Shown one piece after another: positions 11,518 to 21,139 of a stretch of 47,548 bases of DNA (the first letter of the stretch is position 1; every line of letters starts with the position of its first letter). The stretch is from positions 105,048-152,595 of the forward strand of contig JAAYAM010000161.1 of the NCBI GenBank assembly GCA_012719355.1. The letters run 5' to 3'. Source of the DNA: Acidobacteriota bacterium (GTDB lineage: Bacteria; Acidobacteriota; UBA6911). The notes beneath the pieces were generated by a model. It had not been told where the DNA came from. It searched no databases and worked only from the letters and a program-made list of their open reading frames with translations. The translations under genes were made by a program, and so were the position numbers.

Positions 11518-11976
11518 CTACTGCTTCTTCTCAAAGAGCTCGTTGATCTCCGTCATGAACTCGCTGACATCTTCGAATTCCAGGTAGACGGAAGCAAATC
11601 TGAGATAGGCGACTTTGTCGATGCGCCGCAGTTCCGAAAGGAGGATCTTTCCTATGGTCACCGACTCCAGTTCGCGCTCCGGGCTCTCCTGCACCGTCTG
11701 CTCCACCCTGTCGACAATCTTTTCCAACTGGGTCAGACTGACGGGCCTCTTCTCGCACGCCTTAAGCAGCCCGTTGAGGATCTTGTTCCGGTCAAACCGT
11801 TCCCTTCCACCGTCCTTCTTGACCACCATGTAGGGAATCTCGTCGCTGCGCTCATAACTGGTAAAACGCCGTCCGCAGTTCAAACACTGACGCCGGCGCC
11901 GTATCGAATCACCATCACGGCTTTCACGGGAATCGACGACGCGGTCCTTCAGGAATCCACAATATGGACACTTCAT
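11518..11976 (-). CDS. nrdR: transcriptional repressor NrdR
   Basis: Nucleotide-sensing repressor of ribonucleotide reductase genes. It has 152 residues. The N-terminal zinc ribbon has C3-C6 and C31-C34 (MKCPYCG ... RQCLNCGRRFTSYER), followed by an ATP-cone domain (VVKKDGGRERFDRNKILNGL onward). An AAAAAGG stretch precedes the ATG. No nrd gene is in the window. The start is 76 bp from a divergent leader ORF at 12053, so the two share a promoter region. Confidence 0.96.
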   Translation of the reverse strand: MKCPYCGFLKDRVVDSRESRDGDSIRRRRQCLNCGRRFTSYERSDEIPYMVVKKDGGRERFDRNKILNGLLKACEKRPVSLTQLEKIVDRVEQTVQESPERELESVTIGKILLSELRRIDKVAYLRFASVYLEFEDVSEFMTEINELFEKKQ

Positions 11977-12052: not shown

Positions 12053-12163
12053 GTGAAGAGAAAAGGTTTGGGGAATCCGGGAGCCGGAATCGAGTCGGAA
12101 TGCCCGATCTGCGGCAGTTCTTTCATTGAACTTTCGCTTCCGCTTAATCGTTCCAATGACTGA
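12053..12163 (+). CDS. 36-residue leader ORF with CPIC knuckle, overlapping the sigma-factor start
   Basis: A GTG-initiated frame encodes 36 residues, beginning VKRKGLGNPGAG and containing ECPICGSSF, a single C-x2-C zinc-knuckle-like motif. Its TGA overlaps the ATG of the sigma factor (ATGACTGA, 12156-12163). The sigma gene has no visible Shine-Dalgarno of its own, so translation could be coupled to this ORF. A CATAAT -10-like hexamer (12036-12041) would put transcription start only a few bases before the GTG, making it nearly leaderless. Too short for family assignment and could be chance, but the overlap geometry and the cysteine pair argue for a real leader. Confidence 0.45.
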   Translation: MKRKGLGNPGAGIESECPICGSSFIELSLPLNRSND

Positions 12164-12770
12164 GGATTGGATAAACGACAAGGAGCCGCCAGTGCTCTCA
12201 GGGGATGAAAAACTTGTGGAGCGCTGTCTGCACGGAGACGAAGCCGCTTGGGAGCTGGTCGTGAAAGCATATGGGAAGCGGATTTATAACCTGAGTTACC
12301 GTTACACGAACCGCACCGACGTTTCGGAAGATCTCACACAGGACATCTTTGTCCGCATCTACCGGAACCTGCGTAGTTACCGGGCGGAAGCGGGAAGCTT
12401 CCAGAGCTGGATTCTCAAGGTGGCACGCAATCTTATCATCGATCACTACCGGCAATCGCGGAGGTACCCCCAGACCGGCGGGAGCGATCTTCTTGAAGAA
12501 ATCAGGATCAGCGACGACAGGGCCCCTGATCCGCAAAGATGCGCAGAGCGGGTGGAAGCATCGAAATTCCTCAGGGAAGGACTGGGGACGCTTTCTCCGG
12601 AACTCAGGGAAGCCCTGATTCTGAGAGAACTCGAAGGCCTGTCGTACAGCGATATCGCGGAAATCTGCCAGGTTCCGGAGGGGACCGTCAAGAGCCGCAT
12701 AAATCGTGGACGGATCGAGTTGGCGAAACTGCTGATGAAGCGCAGCGCAAGGACAGGAATGAAGGTATAA
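12156..12770 (+). CDS. ECF-type RNA polymerase sigma factor
   Basis: 204-residue sigma-70 family protein of the extracytoplasmic-function class. Region 2 runs from about YGKRIYNLSYRYTNRTDVSE through the -10-binding DLTQDIFVRIYRNL and SFQSWILKVARNLIIDHYR; region 4 carries the -35 reader helix-turn-helix (LSYSDIAEICQVPEGTVKSR). There is no sigma-1 or sigma-3 region. The anti-sigma gene starts 8 bp after its stop, so the pair is co-expressed. Start ATG 12156 lacks a Shine-Dalgarno and overlaps the end of the leader ORF, suggesting translational coupling. Its regulon is unknown; the downstream envelope genes are the natural candidates. Confidence 0.93.
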   Translation: MTEDWINDKEPPVLSGDEKLVERCLHGDEAAWELVVKAYGKRIYNLSYRYTNRTDVSEDLTQDIFVRIYRNLRSYRAEAGSFQSWILKVARNLIIDHYRQSRRYPQTGGSDLLEEIRISDDRAPDPQRCAERVEASKFLREGLGTLSPELREALILRELEGLSYSDIAEICQVPEGTVKSRINRGRIELAKLLMKRSARTGMKV

Positions 12771-12778
12771 GGGGGCAT

Positions 12779-13447
12779 ATGGAGTGCAGAGCCACAGAAG
12801 AAAGGCTGGATGAGTACATCGCATCGAGCCTACCCGCCGAAGAGATGGAGGAGATATCCAGACACCTTGGCGGGTGTGCCAACTGCTCTCTCCTTTCGAA
12901 AGAGCTGCAGACACTGCAGTCGATGTGGGACTGCTACCCTGTCCTGGAGCCCGACGAATCACTGGTAGACAGAATACTGCTGAGAACATCGGGCCGTCCC
13001 AGAACGCGATCCTTACAGGAGCGGCTGCAGTCAATTCTAAAATATTCGCTGTTGAATCCGAGGTTCGCAGCCGGTGCCGTACTGGCCACCGCCTTCGTCC
13101 TTGTTTCCTGCGGCCTGCTGCTCCCGAGGATTGCGGAACAGTACTCCGAATTATCACTCAAATCTGTGGCGAGCTTCATGGACAGAAGCGTTCACCGGCT
13201 CTATGGAGAAGCTCTCAAGATAAATGAGGCGAGAAGCGAGTGGCAGGCGCGTTTCACTTTCTACAAGAACACAACCTGGAACAAGCTGAGGTCGGTCGTA
13301 GAGAGAATAGAGGCCCCAGTCGAAAGGCCGAGTGAACTGGAAGAGCGGATACCGCCGGACAACGAACGATCCAAGCTGGGAGACGACTGGTCGGTAGCTG
13401 CAATTCGAAAATCCAGAACGGGTAGCAACACTGGAGATGAGGTATAA
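12779..13447 (+). CDS. zinc-binding membrane anti-sigma factor
   Basis: 222 residues. The N-terminus is a ZAS/zf-HC2 domain with C3, H29-x3-C33-x2-C36 (RHLGGCANC) that would clamp the partner sigma factor. One membrane segment is predicted at about residues 95-116 (FAAGAVLATAFVLVSCGLLL), leaving the C-terminal roughly 100 residues on the outer face as a sensor. GGGGG precedes the ATG. A longer open frame begins upstream inside the sigma gene, but the MECRATEERL start matches the family. Presumably holds the ECF sigma factor inactive until an envelope signal releases it, by intramembrane proteolysis or zinc-site change. Confidence 0.9.
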   Translation: MECRATEERLDEYIASSLPAEEMEEISRHLGGCANCSLLSKELQTLQSMWDCYPVLEPDESLVDRILLRTSGRPRTRSLQERLQSILKYSLLNPRFAAGAVLATAFVLVSCGLLLPRIAEQYSELSLKSVASFMDRSVHRLYGEALKINEARSEWQARFTFYKNTTWNKLRSVVERIEAPVERPSELEERIPPDNERSKLGDDWSVAAIRKSRTGSNTGDEV

Positions 13448-13451
13448 GCCA

Positions 13452-14078
13452 ATGAGATGTATCAACCATCCTGCGGTCGAAACACAGGAAGCCTGCAGCG
13501 CATGCAGCAGGGCCTTATGCAACGAGTGCATTCACAGGATCAAGGGCAAGCCCTACTGCGAAGACTGCCTCGCGCGCGGCGCGGAGTGGGCCTCGACCGT
13601 CAAAGACCTGCGCCTGCCGTCGGATTCACCCAAACGGGCCGCGCTATGCGCAATCATACCGGGCATGGGTGCGGTCTATAACAATGAGTACCTGAAAGCC
13701 ATAACTTACTTCGCGGTCTGGGCCGCCCTCATCACGATGGGAACCAGAGTCAGCGGTGTGTTCGGCTTCGGCTCGTTCGTCTTTCTTGTCTTCACTATTT
13801 TCGATGCCTACAGAAGCGCCGAGGATCTGGCACGTCGACGGATCGAGACCGGCATCGTCGAAGACCGGCGCCCAACGCAGGACAAGGCCTTGATCGGCTG
13901 GGGCGTTCTTCTGATTGTGATGGGTATTCTGTTCCTGCTGCACAACCTCATCCCGTACTACTGGTTGTACCGCTTCTGGCCGATCCTGTTCATAGCTCTG
14001 GGTGCATATCTCGTCTATCGCGCCATAAAGAGCCGCGATGACAACAGCGGCGAATCAACTTCCGGGGAGAATATCTGA
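13452..14078 (+). CDS. B-box zinc finger / TM2-like / LiaI-LiaF-TM membrane protein
   Basis: 208 residues. The N-terminal zinc module has C3/H6, C15/C18, C23/C26 and C36/C39 (CINH, CSAC, CNEC, CEDC), a B-box-like arrangement on the cytoplasmic side. Next comes a two-helix TM2-like region (IPGMGAVYNNEYLKAITYF, then a second helix ending IFDAYRS). The C-terminal part is a LiaI/LiaF-type module (GWGVLLIVMGILFLLHN then YRFWPILFIALGAYLVY). The ATG at 13452 follows GAGG with 9-nt spacing, 4 bp after the anti-sigma stop. Probably a membrane partner of the signalling unit; biochemical role unknown. Confidence 0.8.
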   Translation: MRCINHPAVETQEACSACSRALCNECIHRIKGKPYCEDCLARGAEWASTVKDLRLPSDSPKRAALCAIIPGMGAVYNNEYLKAITYFAVWAALITMGTRVSGVFGFGSFVFLVFTIFDAYRSAEDLARRRIETGIVEDRRPTQDKALIGWGVLLIVMGILFLLHNLIPYYWLYRFWPILFIALGAYLVYRAIKSRDDNSGESTSGENI

Positions 14079-14079
14079 T

Positions 14080-14292
14080 ATGTCGCGTCCGAGCAGCGGA
14101 GCCCTTACTGCGGGCCTGATCCTGATCATTATAGGAACAATCTTTCTGATTGAAAACTTCTATGAGCCCTTCTCGGTTTGGCGCATCATCATGCGCTATT
14201 GGCCTGTTATCCTGATCATTATCGGCGTGAAGAAGATTTATGACTACTTCACCTTCCCCAAAATCCCACCTGCGCCGGACAAGGCGCCTTAG
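14080..14292 (+). CDS. small LiaI/LiaF-TM (DUF5668-like) membrane protein
   Basis: 70 residues with two membrane helices (LTAGLILIIIGTIFLIENF and YWPVILIIIGVKKIYDYF). The RYWP entry into helix 2 is the same module present at the C-terminus of the preceding protein and the N-terminus of the following one. It starts one base after the previous stop, with GGGGAGA upstream. Likely a minimal membrane subunit; no enzymatic residues are apparent. Confidence 0.8.
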   Translation: MSRPSSGALTAGLILIIIGTIFLIENFYEPFSVWRIIMRYWPVILIIIGVKKIYDYFTFPKIPPAPDKAP

Positions 14293-14304
14293 GAGCCGGA
14301 GAGT

Positions 14305-15906
14305 ATGTCGAAAGGATACCGTCCATCACTGCTGGGAGGTTTGATCTGGCTCGGGTTGGGAGTCCTGTTGCTTCTGCACAATTTCAGAATAGGACCCGAT
14401 ATCTGGACCCTACTCGGACGGTACTGGCCCGTTCTGCTGATTCTCCTCGGTCTGGGCAAGATCCTTGACTATTTCCTTAACAGAGATTTCTCGATCAGGG
14501 TGGGCGAAGTGGTCGGAATCCTGGTATTCCTGCTCGTGGGCCTAGCTCTCACCGCAGTATCCGAGAGCCACGTCGGTGCTATGATCAGGGAGCTTCCGAT
14601 ACCGATCGGGGGGACTCTGACGAGGCCTGGAAGCTGGCTCGGCGACTCTCACACATACGTGGAAGAGAGGACGTTTCCGCTCGAGTCTCGACGGATAAAG
14701 GTCGAGAACAGTCATGGAGGAGTTGCGATCATTCCAGGCAACGACAAAGAGCTGAGGGTGCGTCTGAGGAAGACGATCTATGGGAGTGAAGAACGCGTCA
14801 GGAACTTCGCAGCGCAACTGAGGCTCTCCGGGGAACTGAGCGCGGGCGGACAGTTTCTCGTCCGGACCAACCGGGAGTCTTTGAGCACCCCGGTTCGCAT
14901 GTTTAAGACGGACATGGAGCTGTTTGTGCCGAGAGAATCGCAGGTGCAGGTCGTAAACAGTTTCGGGGATCTCACGGTCAGGAATATACATGGAAAACTC
15001 GATCTGACTACCACGCACGGGCAGCTGGACGTCAGGGCCTGCAGCGGCGACTTCACAGTCTCCAACCGTTATGGTGAGAGCCGTCTCATCAATCTCTCAG
15101 GCAGCCTCGCCCTCGACGCACGCGGCAGGGCGTACATCAAGGATATACGCGGGGATGTCACTGTCAGAAACGAGTACTCTCCCGTTGAGATTTTCGACGT
15201 GGACGGAAAAACGGATCTTTCGGTCACTGAAGGTTCCGTCAGGGCTGAGAACATCATGAAACCTCTGTCGGTCGTCGCTCGAGGGAGCCACGTGCGCCTG
15301 AACAATATCAGGGACAGCGTGAAGGCGGTAATCAGCCATAGAGACGCCGACATATCCAACACCGATGCGGATGTCAAAATTGAAAGCAGCTATGCAACTC
15401 TGAGGATCAGGAATATAAAAGGGAACCTCGACATCAACTCAGGCTTTGATCGCGTCTTCGCAAGCGATATCAGCGGCGGCGTGAAGCTGGCAGGAAAAGG
15501 GAGTGCCGTGCGGGCAAATTCCATCAAAGGCCCTCTCGACGTCCAGACCACATTCAAAGATGTTTTTGTCGACGGCTTCGAGAGCAGCTGCTTCGTCACC
15601 AATCAGCACGCAGGAATCAACATTTCTTCACAATCGGTCGGAAAGGGAGATATCGACGTCACGAACAACAACGGGTCCGTCACCCTGTTTCTGCCCGACG
15701 ACGCCGCGTTCAGCATCAGCGCATCGGCACAGAACGGAGCGATCCATTCCGGCTACCCGGGGCTGGAGCCGGTCAGGAAAGGGGGCGACGCTATGCTGAA
15801 ATCAACTGTGAATTCCGGCGGATCTGCTATCACCGTACAGACCCGTTACGGTAACATCAACATCTATCGTATGCGTGATCGGAGAAACGACCGATCAAAA
15901 TTCTAA
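14305..15906 (+). CDS. LiaI/LiaF-TM plus long DUF4097 beta-repeat protein
   Basis: 533 residues. Three N-terminal helices (about 9-27, 38-57, 66-86) comprise the LiaI/LiaF-type module (GLGVLLLLHNF ... RYWPVLLILLGLGKIL). The remaining roughly 400 residues are DUF4097/toastrack-type beta repeats with a periodicity near 22-25 residues (NSFGDLTVRNIHG, THGQLDVRACSGDFTVSNRYG, RGDVTVRNEYS, EGSVRAENI, SSYATLRIRNIKG, NNNGSVTLFLPDDA), predicted to stack into a right-handed beta structure outside the membrane. GGAGA precedes the ATG. Membrane anchor plus repeat domain suggests an envelope sensor or scaffold. No catalytic motif is seen. Confidence 0.85.
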   Translation: MSKGYRPSLLGGLIWLGLGVLLLLHNFRIGPDIWTLLGRYWPVLLILLGLGKILDYFLNRDFSIRVGEVVGILVFLLVGLALTAVSESHVGAMIRELPIPIGGTLTRPGSWLGDSHTYVEERTFPLESRRIKVENSHGGVAIIPGNDKELRVRLRKTIYGSEERVRNFAAQLRLSGELSAGGQFLVRTNRESLSTPVRMFKTDMELFVPRESQVQVVNSFGDLTVRNIHGKLDLTTTHGQLDVRACSGDFTVSNRYGESRLINLSGSLALDARGRAYIKDIRGDVTVRNEYSPVEIFDVDGKTDLSVTEGSVRAENIMKPLSVVARGSHVRLNNIRDSVKAVISHRDADISNTDADVKIESSYATLRIRNIKGNLDINSGFDRVFASDISGGVKLAGKGSAVRANSIKGPLDVQTTFKDVFVDGFESSCFVTNQHAGINISSQSVGKGDIDVTNNNGSVTLFLPDDAAFSISASAQNGAIHSGYPGLEPVRKGGDAMLKSTVNSGGSAITVQTRYGNINIYRMRDRRNDRSKF

Positions 15907-15925
15907 TTACTGGCCGGGAGTTGCC

Positions 15926-16792
15926 ATGAAGAGAGCAGGGTGGCTGTTCTTGCCGGGTCTGCTGTTGCTGGCCGGCTGCGATTTCGATGAGCGTCTGAGG
16001 ACGGATATGGTCACGCTGTCCCGGACCCAGCAGCTCGGAAATGAGAAGGAACTCACATCAAATATAGATTTCGATATCGGTTCGCTTGAAATCACCGCGA
16101 CGGATGATCCCGGCGTCCTGTATTCACTCGACCTGGAGTATGACAGGGCCAGCTACACGCCGGAGATACATTACGATTCCGGCGGTTCCGGGGAAGCGGG
16201 AACATTCCGATTCGACCTCGATAGCTCGCACATGATCGGGATCAGGCGGGACTCGCATGAAAACCGCCTGCGCCTCGCCTTTAACGGCTCCGTCCCGGTG
16301 CGCCTGAAGGTAAGTGCAGGAGTGGGGGGTGCCCGGCTCTCACTTTCCGGCATGAAGGTTTCGGAAATGGAATTTGACGCGGGCGTCGGCGGCTCGCAGA
16401 TCTCTTCCTACGAACCCAACCCGGTCTCCTGCGACCATATCAGGATAAGAAACGGCGTCGGAAGCGTCAAAGGTACCGGTTTGGGAAACCTCAACTTCCG
16501 CCAGTTCGAATTTGAAGGAGGAGTTGGGGGTGCCAATCTGGACTTCAGCGGAGAATGGAGACGGGACGCAGAAATCAGGATACGGGTCGGGGTCGGAGGA
16601 ATCAGCGTGCTGATGCCCAGAGAGGTCGGGGTCCGGCTCGAGGCCCAGAAAAACTTTCTGAGCGGCCTCCACCTCGAGGGATTCACTCTCCGGAACGATC
16701 ACTACTACAGCGATAACTATGACGATACCCGCTTCAAGGTCGTGATGCGGGTAGACACTGGTGTAGGCGGTTTCAAGATCAGCTGGATCTGA
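15926..16792 (+). CDS. toastrack-like lipoprotein
   Basis: 288 residues with a lipoprotein signal: basic MKRAG, hydrophobic core, lipobox LLAGC with the modified Cys near residue 18. The mature domain has repeated V-G-G turns (AGVGGARLSL, AGVGGSQISS, NGVGSVKG, GGVGGANLDF, VGVGGISVLM, TGVGGFKISW), a pattern seen in LiaF-like C-terminal and DUF4097 beta-solenoids. GGGAG precedes the ATG with 5-nt spacing. It is probably anchored in the inner or outer membrane and works with the neighbouring beta-repeat protein. No active-site residues are evident. Confidence 0.82.
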   Translation: MKRAGWLFLPGLLLLAGCDFDERLRTDMVTLSRTQQLGNEKELTSNIDFDIGSLEITATDDPGVLYSLDLEYDRASYTPEIHYDSGGSGEAGTFRFDLDSSHMIGIRRDSHENRLRLAFNGSVPVRLKVSAGVGGARLSLSGMKVSEMEFDAGVGGSQISSYEPNPVSCDHIRIRNGVGSVKGTGLGNLNFRQFEFEGGVGGANLDFSGEWRRDAEIRIRVGVGGISVLMPREVGVRLEAQKNFLSGLHLEGFTLRNDHYYSDNYDDTRFKVVMRVDTGVGGFKISWI

Positions 16793-16796
16793 ATTC

Positions 16797-17867
16797 ATGA
16801 AAACGTACGGCTGGCTTGGTCTGTCGCTTCTGGTCGTTTCCGGATACTTCCTCAGTCGTCGAATAGAGCCCTTCACTGCATGGTTCTACTGCTTTGCCTG
16901 GTGGTCCTATATCCTCCTTGCCGATAATCTGCTGCTGAAGCTTCGAGGCCGGTCGCTCCTGGTCAGCCGCAGGCGCGAATTCTGGGGCATGCTCCCGATT
17001 TCCGTTTTCATCTGGCTCCTCTTTGAAGCATACAATTTCGTGATCAACAACTGGTCGTACGATGCGGTCCCGCCTCAGACATGGCTCCGCTGGCCCGGCT
17101 ACGCGCTGGCCTTTTCCACGGTGCTTCCCGGGATCTTCATCACGTCCGATCTTGTTGAACTGGTTTTCGGCCGGTCCACCCGGCCTGCCGCTTCGGAGTA
17201 CGAACCGATTGAAGAACCACGCCCGGCACCCTCGCCTCTGTTCATCGTCGTTGGGCTCTTGCTGACGGCCGCGCCTCTGGTATTGCCGACCTACTTCTTC
17301 GCTGCCGTCTGGCTGGGGCCCATCTTCTTTCTCGATCCTCTGCTGGAGAAGTTCGGTATCAGGAGTCTCTCGTTGAGCATTCACAGCGGCGAACGAACGA
17401 GGGTCTGGAGCCTCATGCTAGGGGGATTCATCTGCGGATTGATATGGGAATTCTGGAATTTCTGGGCCGGTGCCAAGTGGATTTATTCGGTCCCGTTTTT
17501 CGACCGGCCGAAGATTTTCGAAATGCCGTTGCTCGGTTTCCTTGGCTTCCCACCATTCGCGCTCGAGTGCTGGATTCTGTACCACCTCGTAAGGGCTGTC
17601 CCCCGGCGCATGGTTTCTTCTGCAGCACGCATCGCCTGGTGGATGGCGTTAGCCGCGTTGTCTCTGGCCGTTCTTCGAGGGATAGACCGGCACACCGTGC
17701 TTCGCTTCGCCGCCGTCGTCACCGATAAAGCCGACTCCTGCAAAAATTTGGTCGCTTTCGCGGTCCCGGATGATAAACTCCAAGACGTTTCTTATTCAAA
17801 TCGAGGCGGGAGTGAGTATTTTGGGGTTTCCGGAATGAGCAGATTCCCAGCTTTATTTTTCGACTAA
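16797..17867 (+). CDS. polytopic membrane protein with internal duplication
   Basis: Not recognised as a characterised family. 356 residues with about eight membrane segments (roughly 4-21, 27-46, 62-84, 100-124, 147-180, 203-222, 244-268, 277-294). Two halves resemble each other: the first has E77-x2-N80, W86-x-Y88, P92; the second has E218-x2-N221, W228-x-Y230, P233, each preceded by an arginine-rich loop (SRRREFW, GERTRVW). Conserved polar residues inside membrane segments suggest a transporter or a membrane enzyme. It begins 4 bp after the lipoprotein stop, so it is part of the same operon. The last 40 residues are soluble and less ordered. Confidence 0.8.
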   Translation: MKTYGWLGLSLLVVSGYFLSRRIEPFTAWFYCFAWWSYILLADNLLLKLRGRSLLVSRRREFWGMLPISVFIWLLFEAYNFVINNWSYDAVPPQTWLRWPGYALAFSTVLPGIFITSDLVELVFGRSTRPAASEYEPIEEPRPAPSPLFIVVGLLLTAAPLVLPTYFFAAVWLGPIFFLDPLLEKFGIRSLSLSIHSGERTRVWSLMLGGFICGLIWEFWNFWAGAKWIYSVPFFDRPKIFEMPLLGFLGFPPFALECWILYHLVRAVPRRMVSSAARIAWWMALAALSLAVLRGIDRHTVLRFAAVVTDKADSCKNLVAFAVPDDKLQDVSYSNRGGSEYFGVSGMSRFPALFFD

Positions 17868-17886
17868 TTACCTGGAGGAAATTTCC

Positions 17887-18741
17887 ATGGAGATCAGATA
17901 TGCAGCCAGCGGGCTCAAACCATTGGCAATCAAGGTTTTCTACAGCGACGAGGATGGATTTGAAGTCGCTTCTGTAATCGTCACCGGGAAGAAAGACGCG
18001 GTTCTTATCGACGCTCAGTGGACGCTGTCGAACGCGCACAGGGTCATCAGCGAGATACTGGAGACCGGGAAGAACCTCAAGACGATCTATCTCACCCATG
18101 CGCATCCGGATCACTATTTCGGAGTCGGAACGATAGCCGAGGCTTTCCCGAAAGCTGAAGTAGTTGCCATCCCGTCGGAAGCCGACATCATCAACAAGCA
18201 GTTCTTCGGGAAAATGGAGATCTGGGAAAGTACCATAGGCTCCCACAACGTCTGCAGAAAGGCAGTAAATGTTACCGCTCTCAAGCAGGAGTACTTCGAG
18301 CTGGAAGGGCACCGTCTCGAGATCATCTCGAAAGTCATGGGCGACATGAGATATAACACGATGGTCTGGATTCCTGAAATCAAGGCCCTCTATGCCAGCG
18401 ACGTGCTGTTCAACCAGGCGCATCCGTTCACATGCGAGCTGACGGCGGGAGAGAGACAGCAGTGGATCAAAGACATCGACAAGATTGAAACGATGGGCGC
18501 CGACATCATCATCCCGGGTCACCAGAAACCCGGAATGCAGTTTGACAGAAGCTCGCTCGATTTCACTCGCGAGTACATTGTCGCCACCGAAGAGGTGCTG
18601 GCGAAGACAAGTACGGCGGCCGAGTTCTACTATGAAATGAATGCGCGCTTCCCTCAGGCGAATCTGATCCAGAAGAGCAACGAGATGAACGCGAATGTCT
18701 TCAAGGCCGGAAGAGACTGGCACTGGAGAGAAGAGGAATAG
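17887..18741 (+). CDS. metallo-beta-lactamase-fold hydrolase
   Basis: 284 residues with the MBL metal signature H71-A-H73-P-D75-H76 (THAHPDHYFG), a later metal-bridging Asp (LYASDVLFN) and a final His (IIPGHQKP). No signal peptide, so cytoplasmic. It resembles the broad MBL hydrolases related to glyoxalase II and quinone-type or lactone hydrolases; the substrate cannot be told from sequence. A strong GGAGGAAA Shine-Dalgarno precedes the ATG. It is the last gene of the sigma-factor unit, directly before a hairpin terminator. The 19-bp gap from the membrane protein supports co-transcription. Confidence 0.88.
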   Translation: MEIRYAASGLKPLAIKVFYSDEDGFEVASVIVTGKKDAVLIDAQWTLSNAHRVISEILETGKNLKTIYLTHAHPDHYFGVGTIAEAFPKAEVVAIPSEADIINKQFFGKMEIWESTIGSHNVCRKAVNVTALKQEYFELEGHRLEIISKVMGDMRYNTMVWIPEIKALYASDVLFNQAHPFTCELTAGERQQWIKDIDKIETMGADIIIPGHQKPGMQFDRSSLDFTREYIVATEEVLAKTSTAAEFYYEMNARFPQANLIQKSNEMNANVFKAGRDWHWREEE

Positions 18742-18750
18742 CCGCTCTGG

Positions 18751-18778
18751 AGCCCGGCCCTGCGGGGCCGGGCTTTAT
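18751..18778 (+). terminator. intrinsic terminator ending the ECF-sigma/toastrack unit
   Basis: A perfect 10-bp GC-rich inverted repeat (AGCCCGGCCC / GGGCCGGGCT) with a TGCG loop, followed by a short TTTAT tail, 9 bp after the MBL stop codon. Confidence 0.8.
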
Positions 18779-18897
18779 GCCCACACCGAATCGCCATCCC
18801 TCAGTACCGGCAGCGCCGGACAAATCACTAATCATTTCCCGCCCTGAAGACGACAACTCATTAGTACGGTTCCCAATCGGAGCCGCGGGAGCATAAT

Positions 18898-19707
18898 ATG
18901 CGGATTTGCCCGATTCTGTTGCTTCTCCTTCTTGTATCCGGCCTCCATTCGCAGGAGGCGCCGCCTCCTTCTTCCGCTCAAATCCCCTATGTGGAGCGGG
19001 AACAACGGAATTTCAATTTCTATCCGGGCGGCAAGCTGTCAATCTCGTCCGCAGTACCCGGGAGCCTGAAGATCATCGGATGGAAGACGGGCTCGGTTCG
19101 CGTTGATGCGGAGACAATCGTGTACTCCCTCCCCCCGGAAGAAGCGAAATCGTTGTTGAAGAAGCATCCCATCCGGGTGCGATGGAATCAGACGAGCGCT
19201 TCGGTGCTGGTCCAGGAAGCTCCGGCAAGGATGGAAGTCAACCTGACGGTCTACGTTCCCGGCGACAAGACGGACCTGATTGCGAAGATACCGCGTGGAG
19301 ACATCAGTATAGAATCGGTAAACGGCTGGATCGAAACCTCTACCGGAGAGGGGTGTCTGGAGGCCAGATCGCTGGGAGGGTATTTCTCGGGCATCACGCC
19401 GCGCGGCGATATTGTTGTTGAACTGTCTGGCCTCCGCTGGAAGGGACTGGAACTTGCGGCGATGACGCAGCACGGTTCGGTTGACCTGAGACTTCCGGAG
19501 CGATTCTCGGCCGCTCTCCAGCTCGAGACGCGCAACGGGAGCATTTCCGTGGACTATCCCGAACAGATCGTCGATGGAGAACCTCAACCTCCTGATATCC
19601 TGATCAACGGAAACGCCCAGTCTTTGAAAGCGACCGTCGGGGACGGCGGCGCCCCCATAAGACTGCTCACCTATTCGGGTAACGTCAGCCTCGTCAAAAT
19701 CGACTGA
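18898..19707 (+). CDS. secreted DUF4097-like protein
   Basis: 269 residues. A signal peptide (MRICPILLLLLLVSGLHSQ) is followed by a proline/serine linker and a DUF4097-type beta domain (GDISIESVNGWIETSTGEG, THGSVDLRLP-like MTQHGSVDLRLP, ETRNGSISVDYP). A GGGAG stretch precedes the ATG. It lies beyond the terminator at 18751, so it has its own promoter somewhere in the 156-bp gap, though no convincing hexamer pair was found. Fold similarity to the proteins at 14305 and 15926 suggests the same envelope function, possibly as a periplasmic partner. Molecular activity unknown. Confidence 0.8.
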   Translation: MRICPILLLLLLVSGLHSQEAPPPSSAQIPYVEREQRNFNFYPGGKLSISSAVPGSLKIIGWKTGSVRVDAETIVYSLPPEEAKSLLKKHPIRVRWNQTSASVLVQEAPARMEVNLTVYVPGDKTDLIAKIPRGDISIESVNGWIETSTGEGCLEARSLGGYFSGITPRGDIVVELSGLRWKGLELAAMTQHGSVDLRLPERFSAALQLETRNGSISVDYPEQIVDGEPQPPDILINGNAQSLKATVGDGGAPIRLLTYSGNVSLVKID

Positions 19708-19775: not shown

Positions 19776-20321
19776 ATGATCGAGATTGACGGGGAAGGGC
19801 TGACGCTCGAAGCTATGGCGCAGGGTTGCGCTGCAACGCCGGCGCGTTGAACTGACACAAGGGGCGCGGATACGGGTGATCGAAAGCCGTGCCGTCATTG
19901 ACAAAGCCCTTGCAGGCGGCCTTCCGATCTACGGTGTGACCACAGGGTTCGGCAAACTCAGTGATGTCAGGATACAGCAGGACGAAATCCGCCAGCTGCA
20001 GATAAACCTCTTGCGCACCAGGCGTCGGTCGACAGTATCCCGACGTCCGCCAACAAAGAAGATCATGTCAGCATGGGAATGACCGCGGCGCTGAAGCTCA
20101 GATCTATCGTCGATAACCTGGAAATGGTGCTGGCGGGCGAAATTCTCGCTGCCTGCCAGGCAATGGAATTTCGCAAGCCGCTGCAGCCCGGGGCAGGGAC
20201 GAAAAGAGCCTTTTCGCTGGTGCGCGAGCACGATCGCATGATCTCGCCTGACCTCTCCATCATCAGCGGCCTGATCCGTCGGAATTGTTTCGCGGATCTG
20301 CTCCGCCGGAAGTCCGGCTGA
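19776..20321 (+). pseudogene. hutH: histidine ammonia-lyase remnant (frameshift and large internal deletion)
   Basis: From ATG 19776 the frame reads MIEIDGEGLTLEAMAQ, then an extra G in the run near 19823-19825 throws it off and it stops at a TGA ending near 19849. In the next frame the HAL N-terminus continues (VELTQGARIRVIESRAV, YGVTTGFGKLSDVRI, RQLQINLLR). Around 20013-20022 the sequence jumps directly to the HAL C-terminus in another frame (HQASVDSIPTSANKEDHVSM, then ALKLRSIVDNLEMVLAGEI), ending at 20321. About 320 of the usual 500 residues are missing, including the Ala-Ser-Gly triad that forms the MIO cofactor. HAL normally deaminates histidine to urocanate; this copy cannot. No other hut gene is in the window. 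Confidence 0.9.
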
Positions 20322-20344: not shown

Positions 20345-21139
20345 TCAAGGCTGAGACTCCCGCTTCTTCGGAACTAGGCGTATCTCGAAGATTCGGGGCC
20401 ATAACTTGCCGGTCACAAACAGCCTTTTCCTGACGGGATCGTAAGCTATGCCATTCAGCACCGCCTCAGGATCCTTTCGGTACATGGGGCCCAGGAGTCC
20501 CCGCAGATCAATCCAGCCCAGCACTTTGCCGGACTCCGGGGCTATGCGGGCAATGCGTTCGGTGTGCCAGACGTTTGCGAAAATCTGGCCATCCACCATC
20601 TCCAGTTCATTAAGCATCGTGACGGGCACGTTGCGATCGTGAACCTTGATTCGCCGTTTTTCCCGCAGCGTGTCCCCATCAAGCACGCGAATCGCGGCCG
20701 ATCCATCGCTCATCAGGAGGTCGCGGCCGTGTGCCGCCAGTCCCCACCCCTCCCCGGCATAGGAAAACTGGCGCATCAGACGGAAATCCTTAAGATCGTA
20801 AACGAATCCCTTCTGCGCTTGCCAGGTTAGCTGCACGACCCGGTTATCGACTATCGCGATTCCTTCTCCAAAGTACTCAGGCGGCAGATCCACTTTCTTA
20901 AGGATTTCTCCGGTTTCAAGCCGAACCTTGCGCAGGGATGAACGGCCGTATTGGCCTGTACCTTCGTAGAGGAACCCGTTGTGAAAAACAAGGCCCTGAG
21001 TGAAGGCGCCGGTATCGTGCGGATACGATCGCAGCACTTCATAGGTGTACTCAGGCGTAGTATTCCTCTGAACCTCGGCCAGAGACACGACCATGCAGAG
21101 AAGTGACATAAGAGCCAGTACTGTTTTCATCGCGATCAT
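20345..21139 (-). CDS. glutamine cyclotransferase, secreted
   Basis: 264 residues. A signal peptide (MKTVLALMSLLCMVVSLA) is followed by a five-bladed-propeller glutaminyl cyclase of the plant/bacterial type (PF05096), recognised from YPHDTGAFTQGL, FLYEGTGQYGRSSL, YFGEGIAIV, ELEMVDGQIFANVWHTERIA and LNGIAYDP. Such enzymes convert N-terminal glutamine to pyroglutamate in exported proteins. Start: GTG/ATG options at 21139 and 21130; neither has a good Shine-Dalgarno. It is divergent from padR and convergent with the hutH remnant (23-bp gap). Confidence 0.88.
   Translation of the reverse strand: MIAMKTVLALMSLLCMVVSLAEVQRNTTPEYTYEVLRSYPHDTGAFTQGLVFHNGFLYEGTGQYGRSSLRKVRLETGEILKKVDLPPEYFGEGIAIVDNRVVQLTWQAQKGFVYDLKDFRLMRQFSYAGEGWGLAAHGRDLLMSDGSAAIRVLDGDTLREKRRIKVHDRNVPVTMLNELEMVDGQIFANVWHTERIARIAPESGKVLGWIDLRGLLGPMYRKDPEAVLNGIAYDPVRKRLFVTGKLWPRIFEIRLVPKKRESQP

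Follow-up and report, generated by a model that had tools for sequence, protein, structure and literature searches.

The operon described here raises the question of whether a compact run of genes headed by an ECF sigma factor constitutes a dedicated cell-envelope stress system and, if so, which of its genes belong to that system. Acidobacteriota are abundant in soils, and to our knowledge little is known about envelope-stress regulation in this phylum. The operon lies within a 47,548-nucleotide stretch of DNA (the window) from an Acidobacteriota bacterium, the genome assembly of which resembles a MAG and totals 4.57 Mb over 377 contigs. The initial annotation viewed the locus as a candidate envelope-stress system with a gene set that should be conserved among relatives. 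This view can be upheld for a core of genes that is co-conserved across Acidobacteriota behind a conserved ECF-type promoter, and has to be given up for the MBL-fold hydrolase and the 356-aa membrane protein encoded downstream. The operon probably serves as a dedicated system against cell-envelope stress; its core and promoter are kept across the phylum, and the stress role is argued from domain families only.

Organization of the Operon

The features of the locus are as follows, with profile matches and their E-values in brackets.

12124..12155, + strand: ECF-type promoter (-35 element GAAC at 12128-12131; -10 element CGTT at 12149-12152; 17-nt spacer)
12192..12770, + strand: ECF sigma factor (Sigma70_r2, 2.1e-18; Sigma70_r4_2, 1.6e-16; TIGR02937, 2.3e-30; Pfam and NCBIfam)
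12779..13447, + strand: zf-HC2 anti-sigma factor (zf-HC2, 5.5e-7; ZAS zinc motif; one TM helix)
13452..14078, + strand: protein with a B-box-like zinc finger, membrane helices, and a LiaI-LiaF TM domain (LiaI-LiaF-like_TM1, 1e-8)
14080..14292, + strand: small LiaI-like two-TM protein (LiaI-LiaF-like_TM1, 5.3e-11)
14305..15906, + strand: fusion of LiaF-TM (3 TM) with a long toastrack beta-solenoid (DUF4097, 3.2e-10; LiaF-TM, 1.7e-6)
15926..16792, + strand: toastrack lipoprotein (Toast_rack_N, 1.3e-5; LiaF-like_C, 6.4e-6; LAGC lipobox)
16797..17867, + strand: 356-aa multi-TM protein without a Pfam match; accessory, outside the core
17887..18741, + strand: MBL-fold hydrolase (Lactamase_B, 2.2e-14)
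18748..18777 (approximate), + strand: terminator-like hairpin with a short T-run
18898..19707, + strand: secreted toastrack protein with a signal peptide (DUF4097, 7.3e-4, below cut-off)

The co-directional run from 12192 to 18741 is compact, with intergenic gaps of 8, 4, 1, 12, 19, 4, and 19 nt. It had been described as nine genes ended by a strong terminator; the compact run stands, with eight genes before the hairpin and nine only when the toastrack gene at 18898, which lies beyond it, is counted. The hairpin at approximately 18748-18777 is very stable when the stretch is folded (-28.3 kcal/mol); it is not listed by a consensus terminator scan, and its T-run is short. The count of four DUF4097-type proteins also requires correction, as the toastrack-type proteins number three (14305, 15926, and 18898).

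An NrdR repressor gene (11518-11976, - strand) is divergent from the operon. Many loci of the class have an ORF matching it in size and orientation ahead of the sigma gene, and an NrdR-like protein is also encoded upstream in locus L085; conserved synteny of the NrdR gene with the operon is suggested. On the other side, 19876-20320 holds what is left of a gene for an aromatic amino acid lyase of the histidine ammonia-lyase type; two ORFs match profile positions 28-78 and 414-466 of 466, and the middle is absent. A glutamine cyclotransferase gene (20345-21139, - strand; PF05096, 2.3e-97) is located close to the gene for the 356-aa protein.

The Sigma Factor, the Anti-Sigma Factor, and the Promoter

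The sigma factor contains regions 2 and 4 only, in keeping with its assignment to the ECF type. Judged from the sequence, its start is probably GTG 12192 rather than ATG 12156. The GTG follows an AAGGAG at 12180 and matches the starts of 192-aa orthologues, and it is preferred because ATG 12156 lies 4 nt downstream of the -10 element. The adjacent gene encodes an anti-sigma factor with a single predicted TM helix (approximately residues 100-118), followed by a predicted extracytoplasmic tail of approximately 100 aa. The ZAS motif HX3CX2C is present in all 19 anti-sigma orthologues of the class, together with one TM region, and the protein is found phylum-wide. By analogy, the anti-sigma factor would bind and inhibit the adjacent sigma factor.

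The promoter has been probed by motif analysis. The pattern GAAC-N17-CGT[T/C] precedes the sigma gene in 18 of 18 class loci with upstream sequence, whereas dinucleotide-preserving shuffles give a mean of 0.69 of 18. Similarly, GAAC-N17-CGT is present in 38 of 40 independent loci (vs 0.7 in shuffles), which consist of Terriglobia and a phylum sample and were not used in defining the motif. A PWM of the class sites has a single hit across the window, at 12124; this matrix was trained on the class sites themselves, such that the fair tests are the shuffles and the independent loci. An ECF motif had been envisaged upstream of both the operon and the 18898 gene; the former is borne out by the counts above, and the PWM scans, which covered the window and the retrieved loci, detected no ECF motif upstream of 18898 in the window. 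By analogy with other ECF systems, the conserved promoter would be recognized by the sigma factor of the operon itself. A large regulon defined by the motif was also considered and rejected, as a stricter pattern gave 126 matches across 38 genomes vs 153 for the reversed control and thus no excess. Consequently, the regulon looks narrow, and the main target of the sigma factor is probably its own operon.

Distribution and Gene Order

The full-length fusion protein is encoded in 22 of the 38 genomes of the window's class, and its anticipated association with ECF sigma genes is confirmed: in all 19 class loci whose contig reaches the sigma gene, the order is sigma, anti-sigma, B-box, (LiaI), fusion, with the sigma and anti-sigma genes leading. 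The lipoprotein gene follows the fusion gene in 21 of 22 class genomes, while loci from Terriglobia have the same order without a recognized lipoprotein. Most named relatives of the fusion protein come from Acidobacteriota ('gp18' and 'Zod_Metabat' MAGs, Terriglobia, Acidobacteriaceae, and Bryobacteraceae) and span soil, groundwater, and sediment lineages. Matches in Bacillota are weak, and two Bacillota loci (L106 and L109) have the same four-gene order. Across the phylum, a match to the B-box family is found in 254 of 396 genomes, most of the genomes compared being MAGs. Among 20 phylum loci, which were hand-picked from the better B-box matches and are not a random sample, all 20 encode the sigma factor, 19 the anti-sigma factor, and 15 the fusion. 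As judged from these gene orders, the system is the first part of the operon only, comprising the sigma factor, the anti-sigma factor, the B-box/LiaF-TM protein, the small LiaF-TM protein, the fusion, and, in one class, the lipoprotein.

Membrane Proteins and the Topology of the Toastrack Domains

Three consecutive proteins of the operon contain LiaI-LiaF-like_TM1/LiaF-TM domains (Pfam and NCBIfam). The B-box match of the first is below the Pfam cut-off for the window protein (E = 0.067) and above it for a Terriglobia orthologue (L074), and the zinc ligands C3, H6, C15, C18, C23, C26, and C36 are invariant in the family alignment. The B-box domain is not essential, because two relatives (L047 and L051) have lost the N-terminal zinc finger and kept both the membrane part and the operon. 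The small LiaI-like protein is fused to the product of the next gene, the fusion protein, in many relatives.

In the model of the fusion protein (pLDDT 85), three membrane helices precede a beta-solenoid of approximately 400 residues. This solenoid is a single-stranded beta-helix of the toastrack type, and its closest fold is 4qrk (Foldseek E = 2.1e-7), a structure that serves as a toastrack example in PMC11237479; a search for solved relatives by sequence returned none that is convincing. Most fusion proteins of the phylum have three TM helices, or five when LiaI is fused in front, and some have only one or two by a simple hydropathy scan. In the class orthologues, the loop between TM2 and TM3 contains a mean of 3.9 K+R vs 1.4 D+E. 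The odd helix count and these positive-inside charges place the beta-solenoid outside the cytoplasm. Taking helix parity, charges, and signal peptides together, the toastrack domains are predicted to be extracytoplasmic and located on the same side of the membrane as the tail of the anti-sigma factor.

The Lipoprotein and the Downstream Genes

A lipobox-like cysteine is present in the alignment of the lipoprotein family. The site between the genes for the lipoprotein and the 356-aa protein is a variable cargo position in several genomes, with a Peptidase_S58 (DmpA-type) gene in four loci (L037, L042, L045, and L046) and a gene for a PLP enzyme in L039. The 356-aa protein itself has no family match in Pfam or NCBIfam, and its model (pLDDT 73) has no confident PDB match. 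It had been expected to accompany ECF sigma genes, and proves to be a family-level neighbor, its gene being next to the operon in the window's family and, beyond it, in a single genome from a different family. In other families its gene is found away from the operon, in several cases beside an M28-peptidase-like gene (Pfam-confirmed in one), and this separability led to its rejection as a core component. Together with the glutamine cyclotransferase gene close to it in the window, the M28 neighborhood points to a possible link between the 356-aa protein and N-terminal peptide processing.

The MBL hydrolase, initially regarded as a further component, is probably a bystander, because orthologues with 69-76% identity sit at unrelated loci in nine sister genomes, some of which lack the operon. 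The toastrack gene at 18898 is a family-level accessory located behind the operon in family f1 and genome G005, and signal peptides are present in its protein family.

Relation to Known Systems

In the RpoE/RseA and SigW/RsiW systems, the gene after the ECF sigma factor encodes an anti-sigma factor of the single-pass ZAS or membrane type, and an autoregulated promoter of the GAAC...CGT type is used. The operon described here has the same sigma/anti-sigma pairing and promoter type. Unlike these systems, it includes downstream LiaF-TM/toastrack genes, and no large regulon is apparent by motif. The operon also shares with the Bacillus LiaFSR/LiaIHGF system the small LiaI-like TM proteins, the combination of LiaF-type TM and toastrack, and matches to LiaG-like toastracks. 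In contrast to Bacillus Lia, which uses the LiaRS two-component system, the operon encodes an ECF sigma/anti-sigma pair and contains neither LiaRS nor LiaH (PspA); likewise, the PspA/IM30 effector of the PSP system is absent from the operon, and PspA is encoded on another contig. PspA is undetected in 11 of the 22 operon-bearing genomes, some of which are incomplete. It does not appear to be obligate, since half of these genomes have no detectable PspA. The three TM helices of the fusion differ from the four-TM region described for Lia in PMC11237479.

Ravi et al. (2024; PMC11237479) predicted sigma-linked, PspA-free contexts of toastrack, LiaI-LiaF-TM, and B-box domains as an analogue of PSP/Lia. 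These contexts resemble the operon in combining the three domain types with an operon-linked sigma factor. The four-gene context named in that work centers on a DUF2089-like protein, and its main text does not contain the terms 'anti-sigma', 'ECF', or 'Acidobacteria'. It was initially thought that no described system has exactly this set of genes. This statement is too broad, given that sigma-linked toastrack contexts had already been predicted in PMC11237479, although the main text of that paper does not name an anti-sigma factor. The present analysis adds the exact ECF/anti-sigma composition, shows that the system occurs widely in Acidobacteriota, and contributes the promoter and the topology argument. 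With respect to topology, PMC11237479 argues that the toastrack is generally intracellular, whereas the odd helix parity observed here puts it outside. No ECF group with toastrack or B-box partners was found in the open-access papers searched.

Proposed Mechanism and Alternative Interpretations

With somewhat better than even confidence, the operon is interpreted as an envelope-stress module built on an autoregulated ECF sigma/anti-sigma pair. In the resting state, the sigma factor would be held by the cytoplasmic ZAS zinc domain of the single-pass anti-sigma factor, as the protein families suggest. The toastracks of the fusion and the lipoprotein may interact with the LiaF-TM/B-box membrane proteins to form a complex for extracytoplasmic sensing and scaffolding. 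Envelope damage would perturb this complex and free the sigma factor through a conformational change or proteolysis. The freed sigma factor would then transcribe the operon from the GAAC-N17-CGT promoter upstream of its own gene, and the main output would be more toastrack/LiaF membrane hardware, which would stabilize the envelope and re-sequester the sigma factor. A further proposal, offered tentatively, is that the operon represents an ancient, Acidobacteriota-widespread surveillance system in which extracytoplasmic toastracks gate the ECF anti-sigma factor directly via its periplasmic tail. Such a system would be an ECF counterpart of LiaF/LiaSR that depends on neither PspA nor a histidine kinase, with its own operon as the main target.

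Alternatively, the operon could be an effector module of the Lia/PSP type with the ECF pair as just one of its regulators; the toastrack would then be a cytoplasmic, membrane-proximal scaffold in a PspA-free phage-shock analogue that senses membrane damage from inside. The shared LiaF-TM and DUF4097 domains speak for this alternative, and PMC11237479 argues for an intracellular toastrack and for sigma-linked toastrack contexts. However, the helix parity and charge distribution of the fusion argue against a cytoplasmic scaffold, as do the toastracks of the operon that carry a lipobox or a signal peptide, making this alternative unlikely. It is more doubtful still that the beta-solenoids have a structural role at the surface or in the periplasm (as adhesin-like proteins, or by binding polysaccharide or peptidoglycan), with the ECF pair simply turning on this surface program upon a cue from nutrients or a surface, and not upon damage. 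The best fold matches, 4qrk and 3pet, are structural-genomics putative adhesins (a matter of naming, not of tested function), and the narrow regulon would fit, but the LiaF-TM domains in three consecutive proteins tie the operon to envelope-stress families, and conservation across lineages from soil, groundwater, and sediment also speaks against this reading. Finally, the co-directional, nearly gapless arrangement in the window could suggest that all nine genes, including those for the 356-aa protein and the MBL hydrolase, form one functional pathway; this is highly improbable in view of the separate loci of both genes in other genomes.

Implications

This analysis delineates a core that is widespread in the phylum, together with a concrete promoter motif and a topology prediction; the core is best read as an autoregulated envelope-stress module. 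If the predicted topology is true, it would contradict the published proposal of an intracellular scaffold for the toastrack and would suggest a route for LiaF-type signaling without a two-component system.
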